DNA from: Anaerococcus hydrogenalis DSM 7454
Lineage (GTDB): Bacteria; Bacillota; Clostridia; Tissierellales; Peptoniphilaceae
DNA: 64,000 bases
Assembly: GCF_000173355.1 (NCBI RefSeq)
Contig: NZ_ABXA01000036.1
Location: 1-64,000, forward strand
Direction: 5' to 3'
The translations under genes and the position numbers were made by a program. Positions within the stretch are counted from its first letter, which is position 1; each line of letters opens with the position of its first letter. This document shows positions 17,692 through 31,669 of this stretch, one piece after another. Below the pieces are notes generated by a model. The model did not search any database, had not been told where the DNA came from, and saw only the letters and a program-made list of their open reading frames with translations.

Positions 17692-18475
17692 GACTATTTT
17701 TTTAATAATATTGACAGTAATCTTACTTCTTTTGTCCTATATTTTTTACCAATGTAAGTGGGCAAAAGAAGTAAGGGTAGATATTGTTAATAGGAAAATA
17801 AAAGATGAGATTAGAATTACTCAAATAAGTGATTTTCATTCAAATATCTTAAAAAATATGGGATATTTTAAGAAAAAAATTCTAAACTTTAATCCTGATT
17901 TTATTATATTAACTGGGGATATAAACGATTATGGAGTTGTTAAAAAATTTAATAAGGCAATAAATTTTTTAAGTGAGCTCTCAAAATTGCGAATAAAAAC
18001 ATATTATATAAGTGGAAATCACGAAGAAGCAGGACCAATGCTGGATGAATTTATAGAAGAAATTGAGAAATTGGGAATAAAATATTTAAAAAATGATGGA
18101 GAATATATAGAAATAAGAAAAGAAAAAATTTATATTTATGGACTTTCTTATTATAATTATTCATTTAAAAATTACAAGACTAATGATGAAAATTTAAATA
18201 TTATTTTAAGTCATTATTCAAAAAATGTAAGAGATAATCTAGATGATAGTATGGATATAATATTTTCAGGCCATACTCACGGGGGACAAGTTAGGTTTCC
18301 TATAATTGGGGCCTTGCTAGCACCAGGTGAGGGATATTTTCCAAAATATGATAAGGGATTATTTAAATACAAAAATGCACAATTATATATAGATTCGGGA
18401 CTTGGAAACACCCTTATGGATTTAAGATTTTTAAATAGGATACAATTTTCCAATATAACCATCAAGCGCCAATAG
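17684..18475 (+). CDS. membrane-anchored metallophosphoesterase
   Basis: 263 aa, with an N-terminal transmembrane anchor (residues 3-22). The calcineurin-type metal motifs run in order: ISDFH, LTGDINDYG, SGNHE, and the terminal GHTHGGQ. It resembles YaeI/YkuE-type phosphoesterases, whose substrates are poorly defined. The start overlaps the end of nadE by 8 bp. Its last ten bases (stop TAG at 18473-18475) lie inside the tRNA-Arg gene, an unusual overlap. Confidence 0.85.
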   Translation: MIKTIFLIILTVILLLLSYIFYQCKWAKEVRVDIVNRKIKDEIRITQISDFHSNILKNMGYFKKKILNFNPDFIILTGDINDYGVVKKFNKAINFLSELSKLRIKTYYISGNHEEAGPMLDEFIEEIEKLGIKYLKNDGEYIEIRKEKIYIYGLSYYNYSFKNYKTNDENLNIILSHYSKNVRDNLDDSMDIIFSGHTHGGQVRFPIIGALLAPGEGYFPKYDKGLFKYKNAQLYIDSGLGNTLMDLRFLNRIQFSNITIKRQ

Positions 18476-18539
18476 TTTAATGGTAAAACAAAAGTGTCCG
18501 AAGCTTAAGATGGGGGTTCAATTCCTCTTTGGCGTGCCA
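18466..18539 (+). tRNA. tRNA-Arg(CCG), with encoded CCA
   Basis: Cloverleaf drawn by hand. The acceptor stem is GCGCCAA/TTGGCGT and the D arm GTTT...AAAC with GG in the loop. The anticodon loop is GTCCGAA, giving CCG, with T33 and purine 37. The T arm is GGGGG-TTCAATT-CCTCT, followed by discriminator G and CCA. The anticodon stem has one mismatch at its outer pair. It reads CGG, a rare codon in AT-rich genomes. The 3' end is the prophage attachment site. A phage-borne terminator follows at 18549. Confidence 0.85.
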
Positions 18540-18540
18540 A
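18523..18540. repeat. attL core (18 bp)
   Basis: TCCTCTTTGGCGTGCCAA, covering the T-arm 3' strand, acceptor 3' strand and CCA of tRNA-Arg. The identical 18 bases recur at 51757-51774 (attR). Insertion leaves the tRNA gene intact, as usual for tyrosine integrases. Confidence 0.9.
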
Positions 18541-18548
18541 GTTTTATA

Positions 18549-18588
18549 AGATAGCTTATTTACAATGTTTGTAGGCTGTCTTTTTTTG
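18549..18588 (+). terminator. phage-borne terminator downstream of tRNA-Arg
   Basis: GATAGCTTA pairs with TAGGCTGTC (GT pairs allowed), followed by T7. It replaces the host tRNA terminator, which is now beyond attR at 51776. Confidence 0.6.
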
Positions 18589-18590
18589 TT

Positions 18591-18614
18591 TTGTTACGTT
18601 TTGTATTACGTTAG
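18591..18614. promoter_or_regulatory. candidate left integrase arm-binding repeats
   Basis: TTGTTACGTT (18591-18600) and ATTACGTTAG (18605-18614) match TTGTTACGTT at 51615 and TTGTTACGTTAG at 51644 near attR. Repeats near both att cores are typical of integrase arm sites. Confidence 0.4.
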
Positions 18615-19718
18615 CATGAATTTTTCGAATTTTTGTCCGTTTTTTTCTTCTTGGCTTTTTGTTACGTGGATATAAATATTCATTGTTGTTTTTGATGTGC
18701 TGTGTCCTAATCTGTGTTGGACGTCTTTTATTGTCATGCCTGCTTCGAAGCATAGGCTTGCGTGGGTGTGTCTTAGTGAGTGAAGTCTTATTTTTCTTAG
18801 ATCATGTTTTTTTATTACTCTTTCAAATCTTTTTCTTGGACTGTTTAGGTTTATTAATTCTGATTGTTTTGTTGTAAATATATATTGGTTTATGTTTTGG
18901 AGTTTTAATTTTGATTGTTCTATTTTCCAATTATAAAGTTCTTTTATCGTTGTTTTATCTATGGATATTGTTCTTATTGAGCTTTTTGTTTTTGGACTTG
19001 TTATTGCTTTTTTGCTTTGTCTTGTTACGGATAGGGATTTGTTTACTGTTAGGGTTTTGTTTTTAAAGTCTATATCATTCCAAGTTAAGGCTAATATTTC
19101 TCCTTTTCTTAATCCTGCGTATGTTGCAATTTTAAAAAATAGGTACCACATTTGATCTAGGTCTTTTTTTGCGTGGTAGAGAAATTCTTTTAATTCTTCT
19201 TTGTCCCAATATTCTAAGCTCATGTCTTTTTGTTCTTTTCTTATGGTTGGATAGATTATGTTTAAGCATGGGTTGTAATCTGTGTAGCCTTGGTTTATGG
19301 CGAATTTGAATAGCCTATTTAGGTAAATGTTTATTAATTTAAAATCTGCTATTTCTTGTGATTTTTTGTTTATTAATTTTTGGATTACTGGTGTTGTTAT
19401 TTTATCTAGTTTTTTATTTCCTAAATAGGGAAGAATATGATTTTTGAATACTCCATATACTCTGGTATAGGTTGTGTATTTTACTGTAGGTTCGTATAGG
19501 GGCAGCCAATCTTTTAATAGTTCGTTTAGGGTTATGTTACAAATGGATTTTACCCCTTGTTTTTTGAGTTTGGCATATTCTATTTGTGCTTGTTTTTTGC
19601 TTATAAATCCTTGTCTATTTGTTCTTATTTCTTTTCCTGTTAGAGGATCTTTGCCTAAGTAGATGTTAAATTTATAGAGAGTTTGTCCGTCTTTGTCTTT
19701 GTAGCTTGTTATTTTCAT
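18606..19718 (-). CDS. int: tyrosine recombinase, phage integrase
   Basis: 370 aa from the ATG at 19718, chosen because GGAGG lies just before it; a longer form from 19742 has no SD. The N-terminal arm-binding domain is AP2-like (KDKDGQTLYKFNIYLGKDP), followed by a SAM-like core-binding domain and the catalytic domain. Active-site residues are Arg in GLRKGE, His-x-x-Arg in HSLRHTHAS, His in LGHSTSKTT and Tyr in MNIYIHVT. It catalyses insertion and excision at the tRNA-Arg att site. It reads towards attL, with its stop codon overlapping the candidate arm repeats. Confidence 0.95.
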   Translation of the reverse strand: MKITSYKDKDGQTLYKFNIYLGKDPLTGKEIRTNRQGFISKKQAQIEYAKLKKQGVKSICNITLNELLKDWLPLYEPTVKYTTYTRVYGVFKNHILPYLGNKKLDKITTPVIQKLINKKSQEIADFKLINIYLNRLFKFAINQGYTDYNPCLNIIYPTIRKEQKDMSLEYWDKEELKEFLYHAKKDLDQMWYLFFKIATYAGLRKGEILALTWNDIDFKNKTLTVNKSLSVTRQSKKAITSPKTKSSIRTISIDKTTIKELYNWKIEQSKLKLQNINQYIFTTKQSELINLNSPRKRFERVIKKHDLRKIRLHSLRHTHASLCFEAGMTIKDVQHRLGHSTSKTTMNIYIHVTKSQEEKNGQKFEKFMLT

Positions 19719-19745
19719 TTTTTTCCTCCTTTCTTGATACAAATA

Positions 19746-21187: not shown

Positions 21188-21991
21188 TTAAATTTTTTCA
21201 AGAAATAGTTTTTGAATAGTTTTGCTTATGTCCATCATATTTTCTTGAGGTAGTTGTATATCTATTAATGCATCATTATTATTTTTTGGATCAAATATTC
21301 TCATTTTGGAGATTGTAGTTATTTGGGAACAACGTGCATAACTACCTTCTTTTAAATGCTCTATTTTATTTAATCTATTTTTGGATTTTTTTATACCAGA
21401 ATTTAATTTTTTAGTAGTTTTTTTAACTTTTTTCAGATATGCTCCGAATGATTCAGATTTAATCTCTATATCCTTATCTTCAGAAGTAGAATTCATTTCT
21501 TTTTTTACTTGATTTCCCTTCTCTTTTAAATCTTTAAGCATTTCATTATATAAATTTATTTCAGTTTTAAATTTTAAGTCTAATAAATCATGTAAAGTTG
21601 TACCTAAATAGATTTCGGATCTATTTAAATCTTTTATGGTTTTATTACTTTTTAATGATGATAGGGGAACAATTGTTAATAATTTATTTCTTTTGTTATC
21701 GTGTTTATTTAAAACTACGCAATAATGTTTGCCTCCGAATTCATCTCCAACATTAAATCCAAGGTTGACATCTATAACTGCTCCGTATTTATAGACTGGC
21801 AAATAATTTGCACTGAATTTATTTTCAAAACTTAAATAGTTTATATAATCATTAAGCCAATAAACTATAGAAGCACATCTTTTTTGATTTTCATCTAGTG
21901 AATTATTTATGTAATTTTCCAGACTTGCTATTGTGTCATTTTTGAATACTATAAACTCATCTTTAAATTCTTCTTTTTTAAAATCTACCAT
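21188..21991 (-). CDS. MazF/PemK-like toxin with inserted coiled coil
   Basis: 267 aa; SD AAAGGAGGT. The middle (about residues 65-115) carries the MazF/PemK barrel signature YGAVIDVNLGF, GGKHYCVVLN and LTIVPLSSLKS. The last strand block, YARCSQITTISKMRIFD, comes after a Lys/Glu-rich predicted coiled coil (about 138-215). Family members are ribonucleases or gyrase poisons. Here the usual GxRP is GKHY, shared with the protein at 30630. No antitoxin-like ORF adjoins it. The gene follows the repressor in the lysogeny operon. It could equally be a non-toxic phage protein of the fold. Confidence 0.65.
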   Translation of the reverse strand: MVDFKKEEFKDEFIVFKNDTIASLENYINNSLDENQKRCASIVYWLNDYINYLSFENKFSANYLPVYKYGAVIDVNLGFNVGDEFGGKHYCVVLNKHDNKRNKLLTIVPLSSLKSNKTIKDLNRSEIYLGTTLHDLLDLKFKTEINLYNEMLKDLKEKGNQVKKEMNSTSEDKDIEIKSESFGAYLKKVKKTTKKLNSGIKKSKNRLNKIEHLKEGSYARCSQITTISKMRIFDPKNNNDALIDIQLPQENMMDISKTIQKLFLEKI

Positions 21992-22050: not shown

Positions 22051-22704
22051 TTATTTACTCCCCTTAACATACATTCCAACCATTTCACCAAGTATTCTAA
22101 TATTAGTTGATTCATCTAAATTAATTATTATAGGAGAGTAGGATTTATTTTCGGGTTGAAGTATTATCTGATTTTCTTTTTTGTAGAATCTTTTTAAAGT
22201 AGTTGTATCATCAATAAAAACTGCCGCTATAGATCCGTTTTCTACTTGTGGTGTTTGTTTGAAAAAAACTAAATCTCCTTCATGAATACCTGCATCTATC
22301 ATTGAATCTCCATCAGCATAAAGGCAAAAGTCTGAGTTTATCATTTCTGGGTCTGCTGTGAAATATCCTTCATAGTTTTCTACGGACATTACTGGTTTAC
22401 CACATTGGATATGCCCAAGTATAGGAATTTTTATTATTTTTTTTACTGGTATTACTCCTGGTATATTTGATAGGTCGATTTTATCTTTTTCCTTGTCTTT
22501 ATCGTCTTCCCATCCCATTAAATAAGCTGGTGTTGTATTTAAAGCTGCTGCTAATAATTCGATTTTATCTGATGGAATATTTTGTATATTTCCATTTTCG
22601 TATCGTTGAATAGTAGCTTTTGTAACTCCAACCTTTTGTCCAACTTCTTCTAAAGTTTTACCTAATTGATTTCTCTTATATTTTATTCTATCAGCTAACT
22701 TCAT
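22051..22704 (-). CDS. CI-like repressor with S24 peptidase domain
   Basis: 217 aa. The N-terminal HTH_3 domain (GKTLEEVGQKVGVTKATIQRYENG) binds operators; that motif is split here as GKTLEEVGQKVG and VTKATIQRYENG. The C-terminal LexA/CI-type domain has catalytic Ser in DGDSMIDAGI and Lys in TTTLKRFYK. A Cys-Gly pair (HIQCGKP) is the likely self-cleavage site. It should hold the prophage silent and be inactivated through RecA after DNA damage. It is divergent from cro with two matching operators between them. Confidence 0.93.
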   Translation of the reverse strand: MKLADRIKYKRNQLGKTLEEVGQKVGVTKATIQRYENGNIQNIPSDKIELLAAALNTTPAYLMGWEDDKDKEKDKIDLSNIPGVIPVKKIIKIPILGHIQCGKPVMSVENYEGYFTADPEMINSDFCLYADGDSMIDAGIHEGDLVFFKQTPQVENGSIAAVFIDDTTTLKRFYKKENQIILQPENKSYSPIIINLDESTNIRILGEMVGMYVKGSK

Positions 22705-30464: not shown

Positions 30465-30482
30465 GTGAAACTAGCTTATAAG

Positions 30483-30511
30483 TTGTATTTTACTATTATT
30501 AGTGGTATTAT
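30483..30511 (+). promoter_or_regulatory. promoter of the repeat RNA / MazF-like locus
   Basis: TTGTAT (30483-30488), 17-bp spacer, TATTAT (30506-30511). It lies after the late-regulator stop and reads into the repeated RNA. Confidence 0.6.
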
Positions 30512-30517
30512 ATAAGT

Positions 30518-30618
30518 ACCAAAAGCCTTATACGTTAAGGATACGGTTTTAAAGGAGAAAGAGCCTTATTAGTTAAGGCTAACCGAAGGTATGCTCTTGT
30601 GGCATACCTAATTTTTTT
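30518..30618 (+). ncRNA. structured repeat RNA upstream of MazF-like gene (antitoxin RNA candidate)
   Basis: About 100 nt between a good promoter and a terminator. Two imperfect 38-nt units each carry a hairpin: CCTTA-TACGT-TAAGG (30526-30540) and AGCCTTA-TTAGT-TAAGGCT (30562-30580). CGGTT after the first hairpin can pair with AACCG (30581-30585) after the second. AGGTATGC/GCATACCT plus T7 then forms a terminator (30587-30618). No ORF. The toxin-like gene starts 12 bp later. This is the promoter, repeats, terminator, toxin order of type III toxin-antitoxin loci. Confidence 0.55.
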
Positions 30619-30629
30619 ATGAGGATAGA

Positions 30630-30983
30630 ATGGATATTGAAAAATTTGGTGTATATTTAGTAAATTTTTATAAATCAACTGGTGGGGAGTTATCTGGTAA
30701 ACATTATGCCATAGCTATAACTGATTTTAATAAAGAGCATAAAACTTTTGTTGCAGTACCTATTACAAGCAAGAAATCAGGTAAGAAGTATAGGGGTGGT
30801 TTTACTATTTATTGTAATAAATATCAAGAAAATCCTAGTAAAGAAAAAGCTTTCGCTATGGTTAGCAAAATCAGAGAGGTTTCAATACATAGAGTTTATG
30901 GAGATATGATTTATAAGTTAGATTATGAAGATATTGAAAAATTAAAGAAGTCTGTTTATAAAGTTTTTGATTTTTTGAATTAA
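30630..30983 (+). CDS. MazF/PemK/ToxN-fold protein, candidate toxin
   Basis: 117 aa, the size of MazF. KFGVYLVNFYKSTGGELSGK, HYAIAITDF, FVAVPITSKKSG and FAMVSKIREVSIHRVYG follow the strands of a MazF/PemK barrel. It shares GKHY and the PITS/PLSS strand with the larger protein at 21188. MazF and type III ToxN toxins are RNA endonucleases with the same fold, so RNA cleavage is a fair guess. There is no protein antitoxin gene upstream; the structured RNA at 30518 is the candidate partner. SD is weak (GAGGATAG). Confidence 0.65.
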   Translation: MDIEKFGVYLVNFYKSTGGELSGKHYAIAITDFNKEHKTFVAVPITSKKSGKKYRGGFTIYCNKYQENPSKEKAFAMVSKIREVSIHRVYGDMIYKLDYEDIEKLKKSVYKVFDFLN

Positions 30984-31066: not shown

Positions 31067-31095
31067 TTGACTATAATATAAGTCGGTAGTATAAT
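31067..31095 (+). promoter_or_regulatory. strong promoter for small-peptide locus
   Basis: TTGACT, 17-bp spacer, TATAAT. The transcript would start about 20 bp before an AAAGGAGG ribosome site. Confidence 0.7.
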
Positions 31096-31122
31096 ATAAG
31101 TATGAAAGGAGGAAATAATATA

Positions 31123-31221
31123 ATGATTAAAGGCATAAAAAAATTGAAGATTACAGAAATTGAAATCGACCTCAACATTGTAATCTTCAAAATAAAAATT
31201 AAACTAACTAAGAGCTCTTAG
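31123..31221 (+). CDS. 32-aa peptide with strong ribosome site
   Basis: Preceded by AAAGGAGG at good distance. Sequence starts MIKGIKKLKITEIEIDLNIV, then alternating basic and aliphatic residues to KLTKSS. The coding DNA holds a 9-bp inverted repeat (GAAGATTAC / GTAATCTTC), and the end overlaps an AAGAGCT/AGCTCTT hairpin. A strong promoter and SD argue it is expressed. Unknown family. Confidence 0.45.
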   Translation: MIKGIKKLKITEIEIDLNIVIFKIKIKLTKSS

Positions 31222-31561: not shown

Positions 31562-31626
31562 AAAGTGGGACAAATTTCCTATTTTATGGTATACTATTTG
31601 TAAGATTAAAAGTGTATACATTTTAA

Positions 31627-31654
31627 AGGCGAACGATTAGGTTCGTCTTTTTTT
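31627..31654 (+). terminator. rho-independent terminator
   Basis: AGGCGAAC-GATTAG-GTTCGTCT and T7. An extended -10 (TGGTATACT, 31587-31595) lies about 30 bp upstream, so a very short RNA may end here. The terminator at 32158 is closely similar. Confidence 0.65.
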
Positions 31655-31669
31655 ATGCCTAAATGTTTG

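Follow-up and report, generated by a model that had tools for sequence, protein, structure and literature searches.

The prophage-borne locus analysed here places a gene of the MazF/PemK toxin family directly behind a short, repeated hairpin RNA and a terminator, and it raises the question of whether that RNA, in place of a protein, keeps the toxin in check. Type III toxin-antitoxin loci consist of a single promoter, tandem RNA repeats, a Rho-independent terminator and a toxin gene, and their known toxins have a MazF-like fold at very low sequence similarity, as described in the available part of PMC5086642. An earlier note on this Anaerococcus DNA had proposed a locus of this type. In the window, by which we mean the whole stretch of 64,000 nucleotides that was analysed, positions 30483-30983 do hold a predicted promoter, the sequence of an RNA of about 100 nt, a terminator and the toxin gene in that order (Table 1).

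The predicted promoter has the 17-nt spacing claimed for it, though it is weak, matching 8/12 consensus letters and falling below the threshold of the scan tool; at two related loci (L004 and L005) the promoter with the best -10 box is likewise weak, at 7/12 letters. At the 13 loci examined, 13-16 nt separate the end of the best-scoring -10 box from the first hairpin (the first CCTT) downstream of it, so the RNA would start at unit 1. The two imperfect 38-nt units with their CCTTA/TAAGG hairpins are present as described: they are 77% identical to each other over 30 nt, and their hairpins, CCTTATACGTTAAGG in unit 1 and CCTTATTAGTTAAGG in unit 2, lie 38 nt apart. The unit pattern matches twice in the window, both times at the locus, against 0.02 matches expected, and the two-unit pattern occurs once in the available 1.9-Mb Anaerococcus hydrogenalis genome. 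The RNA is no chance repeat. The terminator and the 117-aa gene that follows it were confirmed, as was the missing protein antitoxin: no plus-strand ORF of at least 40 aa was found between promoter and toxin gene (the opposite strand has one of 47 aa).

Table 1. Features of the cassette and of the prophage around it, in window coordinates
Feature	Position	Strand	Basis
Predicted sigma-A-type promoter: TTGTAT (30483-30488), 17-nt spacer, TATTAT (30506-30511)	30483-30511	+	read from sequence; best-scoring -10 box, 13 loci
Predicted transcription start	about 30518	+	
Two-unit structured RNA, candidate RNA antitoxin, about 100 nt including terminator	30517-30619	+	toxin-gene linkage, structure, covariance model R1
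Unit 1: outer helix ACC (30518-30520)/GGT (30545-30547), A-rich linker, inner stem CCTTA/TAAGG (30526-30540)	30518-30547	+	RNAalifold, pair counts
Unit 2: A-rich linker and inner stem CCTTA/TAAGG (30564-30578)	30552-30581	+	RNAalifold, pattern scan
Intrinsic terminator between RNA and toxin gene; stem 30587-30609 plus T-run	30587-30618	+	terminator stem also in 13-locus consensus
Ribosome-binding site GAGG	30621-30624	+	read from sequence
MazF/PemK-family toxin gene, 117 aa, ATG at 30630	30630-30983	+	PF02452, phrog_13411, fold model
Integrase gene; with adjoining tRNA gene 18466-19742	18606-19742	-	by eye
Prophage repressor gene	22051-22704		by eye

The protein was compared with both toxin families by profile and by structure. 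It matches PF02452 (PemK_toxin) at 42.9 bits against a cut-off of 23.1 and the phage family phrog_13411 at E 1.1e-26, among MazF-like phage families, and a search of the PDB with a profile of 14 homologues retrieved MazF from S. aureus and from Bacillus species (E 1e-5 to 6e-4). Structure prediction, which had been suggested as a check, gave a confident MazF fold (pLDDT 88.8) that superposes on S. aureus MazF with a Z-score of 16.4 (112 residues aligned, rmsd 2.3). In hhalign comparisons, all with shallow alignments, the toxin reached a probability of 98.7% to seven MazF/PemK proteins that adjoin antitoxin-size ORFs and 0.1% to seven ToxN homologues from the same bacterial family. The ToxN family PF13958 is not among the Pfam matches of the toxin to E 1 and has no match in the A. 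hydrogenalis genome, while 28 of 130 genomes from that bacterial family have one. The 50 structure matches listed for the model contain no ToxN or CptN chain, which excludes nothing, and the NCBIfam and PADLOC matches include no CptN or TenpN entry, either collection possibly being without such models. By profile and fold the toxin thus belongs with MazF and not ToxN, in agreement with the earlier impression that it is closer to PemK.

Two positions of the protein bear on its activity. T46 is invariant among the homologues and aligns with the threonine of the MazF A-I-T motif, and the R-P motif of MazF is H-Y in the toxin; we take both to correspond to catalytic positions of MazF. Nuclease activity is not certain, because the arginine of R-P is replaced. 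The H-Y pair also occurs in L101, a locus with an upstream antitoxin-like ORF. In each of the eight gene pairs compared pN lies below pS (ratio 0.06 to 0.39), so the gene is not in decay, and the attenuated PemK gene that had been offered as an alternative is unlikely. Toxin identity falls to 44% across the roughly six lineages that keep the layout.

The RNAalifold consensus of 13 loci contains two 5-bp inner stems, a 3-bp outer helix at unit 1 and the terminator, its nested hairpins to be read with the program's inability to predict pseudoknots in mind. No pseudoknot common to the lineages was found, either with RNAalifold, which is blind to them, or as loop pairing by eye. A pseudoknot within the unit (loop MGU with a downstream ACK) could be drawn by eye in some loci and not across lineages, and was rejected. 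The cross-pairing of CGGTT with AACCG in the earlier note holds for the three Anaerococcus-type loci (window, L001 and L002; 5-7 pairs) and fails in the other ten, which have unrelated matches of 3-5 pairs. Conserved in its place is the outer helix around unit 1, ACC/GGU in the window. The search for 3'-flank pairing was free in register, and the outer helix therefore rests on RNAalifold and on pair counting, for which it was taken as five pairs, two of them added by eye to the 3-bp helix.

In these counts, which used a structure derived from the same alignment and so favour that structure, 94.8% of 192 cells were paired compared with 88.6% in shuffles (0/500 as high) and at most 53% when the structure was slid. 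Cells with both sides changed numbered 16 against 7.3 in shuffles (0/500 as high); pairs with double changes (307/500 shuffles as high) and the pair-type count (500/500) showed no excess. The most usefully variable element is the outer helix (pair types CG:8/UA:5 and AU:6/GU:4/GC:2), which occurs only on unit 1 and is unevenly spaced (5 and 4 nt). The inner stems covary by one A-U to G-C change per unit, which may be a single event because it is restricted to Streptococcus, where phage V22 has CCUUG/CAAGG for CCUUA/UAAGG; being otherwise invariant, these stems say little. The A-rich 5' flank and the loop NNMGT are conserved as well, and neither is symmetric. Folding-energy z-scores of the unit region alone are modest (-0.2 to -2.3 in nine loci), reaching -3.1 and -3.2 in two loci with the terminator included; since the unit scores are only moderately low, the structural case is one of comparison, not of energy. 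A block of 64 nt in the RNA is identical between V22 and phiSS12, even though their toxin genes have diverged to pN 0.17 and pS 0.80.

The covariance model R1 scores the window RNA at 120 bits, by construction, as the window is part of the model. Rfam gave no family at gathering score and six low-scoring matches to E 10 (30480-30640), all far from that score; because it also missed all four ToxN loci scanned as a check, absence from Rfam says little. A leader peptide was considered and rejected, as there is no common start codon and the frames shift between units. In one frame the units read KAL(F/L)VKD-like, and seven of 13 loci (window, L001, L003-L006 and SS12) have no start codon in that frame before unit 1; with a spacing of 38 or 40 nt, the units fall into different frames in eight of the 12 two-unit loci. 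The RNA does not look coding.

The RNA and the toxin gene were found together from either side. A scan of viral contigs for the two-unit pattern, made independently of the protein, gave 34 stretches, and in 33 of these an ORF homologous to the toxin starts within 220 nt downstream (frameshifted in L036). The remaining stretch, L026, ends 13 nt past the pattern and comes from the contig of L067, where the toxin gene is present. Relaxing the pattern to CCTT-N7-AAGG twice returned 72 viral stretches, 32 of them found earlier; none of the 40 new ones has the protein within 1.2 kb (five have less than 400 nt downstream), and a control pattern with a loop of six N rather than seven had the toxin in 0/16 stretches (two with less than 400 nt downstream). 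Queried with the toxin and with a Streptococcus RNA, a set of 50,697 phage records gave 20 matching records each time, and the two sets of 20 are identical, including S. suis, S. pneumoniae and S. mitis phages and two phage satellites. This link was made with the Streptococcus RNA as blastn query; the window RNA matched no phage or plasmid record by blastn, and plasmid records gave no match by protein or RNA.

Starting from the protein, both units were found at 34 of 37 viral-contig homologues and at all six genome-contig homologues (56-95% identity; a Peptoniphilaceae MAG, Anaerococcus, Peptoniphilus and Gemella), so that homologues without a conserved upstream RNA, which the earlier note said would refute its reading, are the exception. 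The arrangement is the same in Streptococcus phage V22, where the protein has about 49% identity over an 89-residue match. The sets of 34 and 37 viral loci contain many near-identical Streptococcus prophages and overlap to a large extent, with same-contig pairs L052/L053, L044/L054 and L026/L067; the independent lineages number about six by our own grouping, in collections that over-represent Streptococcus prophages. Mantel correlations of r 0.85 (13 loci) and 0.67 (9 loci) demonstrate co-inheritance only. One unit is present at L074 and L088, the latter with a broken protein frame too, and none at L056. The L056 protein is 57% identical with its frame intact, and it has KYIDG in place of the KY(R/K)GG of the others; this motif loss fits inactivation, on the view that a toxin without its guard has to be inactive, and as a single case is no more than suggestive. 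At L074 (2880-3000), in Streptococcus, the RNA is a single unit, as if the units had recombined, and the toxin is one residue longer, which makes it a natural one-unit test.

Close homologues of the toxin occur in six of 249 genomes of the order, A. hydrogenalis included. In samples of 398 genomes of the phylum and 398 Bacilli genomes, A. hydrogenalis and Gemella apart, the protein search matched nothing closer than distant MazF/PemK proteins or the longer MazF-like ones, and R1 found only the Gemella genome among 398 Bacilli genomes (strict filters, nine candidates scored per genome).

The surroundings in the window are those of a prophage, with genes for a single-strand binding protein, a dUTPase and a phage transcriptional regulator just upstream of the cassette, HNH endonuclease and terminase genes downstream, and a probable attachment site at the tRNA and integrase genes. 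Elsewhere the neighbours differ. The cassette adjoins a phage regulator in Anaerococcus, an XRE-type repressor in Gemella (by eye) and an integrase in the phage satellite Javan339; it lies between housekeeping-like genes (glmM and trpS, by eye) at two Peptoniphilus loci, and between repressor and integrase, at times with one more gene, in six Streptococcus phage records. By eye it also accompanies phage tail genes in L057 and follows a lysin-like gene in L055. When up to 2.5 kb on each side was compared (six loci have 594-2191 nt downstream), no gene but the toxin was common to all six lineages (12 loci, blastp E 1e-3); of 15 other shared ORF pairs, 13 are antisense inside the toxin and two belong to a repressor shared by Gemella and Streptococcus. 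RNA and toxin look like a portable cassette in unrelated gene contexts.

Other features of the same prophage were recorded. A second, longer MazF-like protein of 267 aa with an N-terminal extension is encoded at 21188-21991 on the minus strand, next to the prophage repressor, and no small antitoxin gene or repeats were seen directly upstream of it. Such a gene lies near the cassette in eight of 47 stretches scanned, all Streptococcus (L026, L030, L037, L039, L042, L050, L051 and L120), so that, with the window prophage, the two genes recur together in prophages; it is absent from the 10 kb around three Peptoniphilus loci. Just 3' of the toxin gene, 31067-31221 on the plus strand holds a strong promoter (TTGACT-17-TATAAT), AAAGGAGG and a 32-aa ORF (31123-31221) in which TTGAAGATTAC and GTAATCTTCAA form a long inverted repeat, possibly a small-peptide or structured-RNA gene. 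At 31567-31656 on the same strand a promoter-like site is followed about 30 nt on by a strong terminator hairpin, a possible very short RNA 5' of the packaging genes.

Could the RNA act on something other than the toxin? Promoter, leader, terminator and gene is the order of an attenuator too, and hairpins and terminator might serve only in cis to limit read-through, as an attenuator or a protein-binding leader, with neither binding nor neutralisation of the toxin. RCd22 of Clostridioides difficile itself lowers transcription of abiF, an effect that the available part of PMC12373285 ascribes to its terminator. A plain terminator would do for this purpose, however, and a near-invariant repeated unit in six lineages calls for a specific binder; moreover, no conserved anti-terminator helix was found, the 3'-flank pairing between units being limited to Anaerococcus. 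We regard a leader acting solely in cis as unlikely. The CCTTA-N5-TAAGG repeats could instead be DNA operators for a repressor, as they are inverted repeats close to a promoter and their A-U to G-C changes preserve a DNA dyad as well. Yet they sit 3' of the predicted start site, no repressor gene was found in every lineage, and the non-symmetric conserved features and the unevenly spaced outer helix would seem to suit RNA better; a role as operators is scarcely credible.

A type II module, with an unlinked or hidden protein or small-peptide antitoxin and an incidental RNA, would accord with a toxin family that is of type II elsewhere: an ORF of about 80-130 aa ends no more than 11 nt from the gene start in eight of 25 distant MazF/PemK loci (L017 left out) and, by eye, in L109 and L110. 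No gene besides the toxin was found in every one of the six lineages, however. A peptide from the KAL(F/L)VKD-like frame could start at an ATG, GTG or TTG before unit 1 in six of 13 loci, but the other seven offer no start, and the units leave the frame in eight of 12. The longer MazF-like gene, near the cassette in those eight Streptococcus stretches and elsewhere in the window prophage, could be a partner, but it is missing within 10 kb of the three Peptoniphilus loci. We judge a hidden type II antitoxin to be very improbable.

The two-hairpin RNA is probably the antidote of the MazF-type toxin, and we have good, though not complete, confidence that the locus is a self-contained, mobile type III-like toxin-antitoxin cassette whose RNA units inhibit a MazF/PemK protein. 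One promoter would yield mostly an RNA of about 100 nt, two hairpin units long, that stops at the terminator, and occasional read-through would supply the mRNA for a MazF-fold endoribonuclease. The RNA units would bind and inhibit the protein, probably by covering its RNA-binding groove, and the protein would stay silent as long as the RNA is replenished. Were transcription disturbed by a superinfecting phage, by loss of the element or by host shut-off, the RNA would decay, mRNA would be cut and growth would arrest; in prophages this could stabilise the lysogen and block competing phages.

With somewhat less assurance, we lean towards the view that a repeat RNA has here taken over from the protein antitoxin of a genuine MazF/PemK toxin, which would make the pair a fourth type III family with an origin of its own. 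Its antitoxin would be a nested double hairpin and not a pseudoknot, phages and phage satellites would have spread it through Anaerococcus, Peptoniphilus, Gemella and Streptococcus, and the toxin itself would process the RNA precursor by cutting at the conserved A-rich linkers. No description of a MazF/PemK toxin with an RNA antitoxin was found among the open-access papers searched. A protein that is MazF/PemK at the sequence level and apparently paired with an RNA would make the step from protein to RNA antitoxin directly testable. The RNA is also a likely partner for genes called 'PemK-like', 'MazF-like' or 'hypothetical' in S. suis, S. pneumoniae and S. mitis phages and in two phage satellites, and the cassette is an added candidate module for phage defence or lysogen maintenance.

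Among known systems, MazEF/PemIK shares the toxin family and fold with the cassette (PF02452, S. aureus MazF and the hhalign match above), and differs in that here no adjacent protein antitoxin was found, a repeat RNA stands in its place and R-P is H-Y; the absence of a protein antitoxin is the reason for not filing the cassette there. ToxIN, CptIN and TenpIN resemble it in gene order, tandem RNA repeats, terminator and a MazF/Kid-like toxin fold, as far as the available part of PMC5086642 describes them. Type III antitoxin RNAs fold as H-type pseudoknots; for this RNA nested hairpins are predicted by RNAalifold, a method blind to pseudoknots, and no conserved pseudoknot was found by eye. The toxin has no profile relation to the seven ToxN homologues (hhalign 0.1%) and no listed match to PF13958, and for this reason the cassette is not filed as ToxIN. 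ToxN loci are themselves frequent in the same bacterial family, in the 28 of 130 genomes mentioned above, some with only two repeats (examples are L199, L200, L203 and L204). In four ToxN loci of that family, inspected by eye as a positive control, two or three repeats are followed by a terminator and the gene; two units are therefore ordinary, and the low unit count that had seemed an oddity is not unusual.

CptIN of E. rectale likewise has two repeats, as in this cassette, and according to the available part of PMC4627078 one CptI repeat is enough for antitoxicity, so the single-unit locus L074 could be functional. Phage-borne type III loci of another kind are known in streptococci, since a toxN locus with its RNA has been described in a group B streptococcal prophage (PMC11357604, in the part available). 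The closest working analogue is RCd22-AbiF of the Clostridioides difficile phage phi027. It is phage-encoded like the cassette and shares with it a promoter, two RNA motifs (in an RNA of about 100-130 nt), a terminator and a toxin, and the available part of PMC12373285 reports that RCd22 binds and neutralises its toxin directly, cleavage between the motifs not having been seen. The components differ: the RCd22 motif is RF03085 and its toxin is AbiD/F (Abi_2, HEPN-like), whereas RF03085 is not among the cmscan matches to E 10 at 30480-30640 and Abi_2 is not among the Pfam matches to E 1. By analogy with RCd22-AbiF, we infer that the RNA of the cassette neutralises its MazF-type toxin directly and in the same kind of way.
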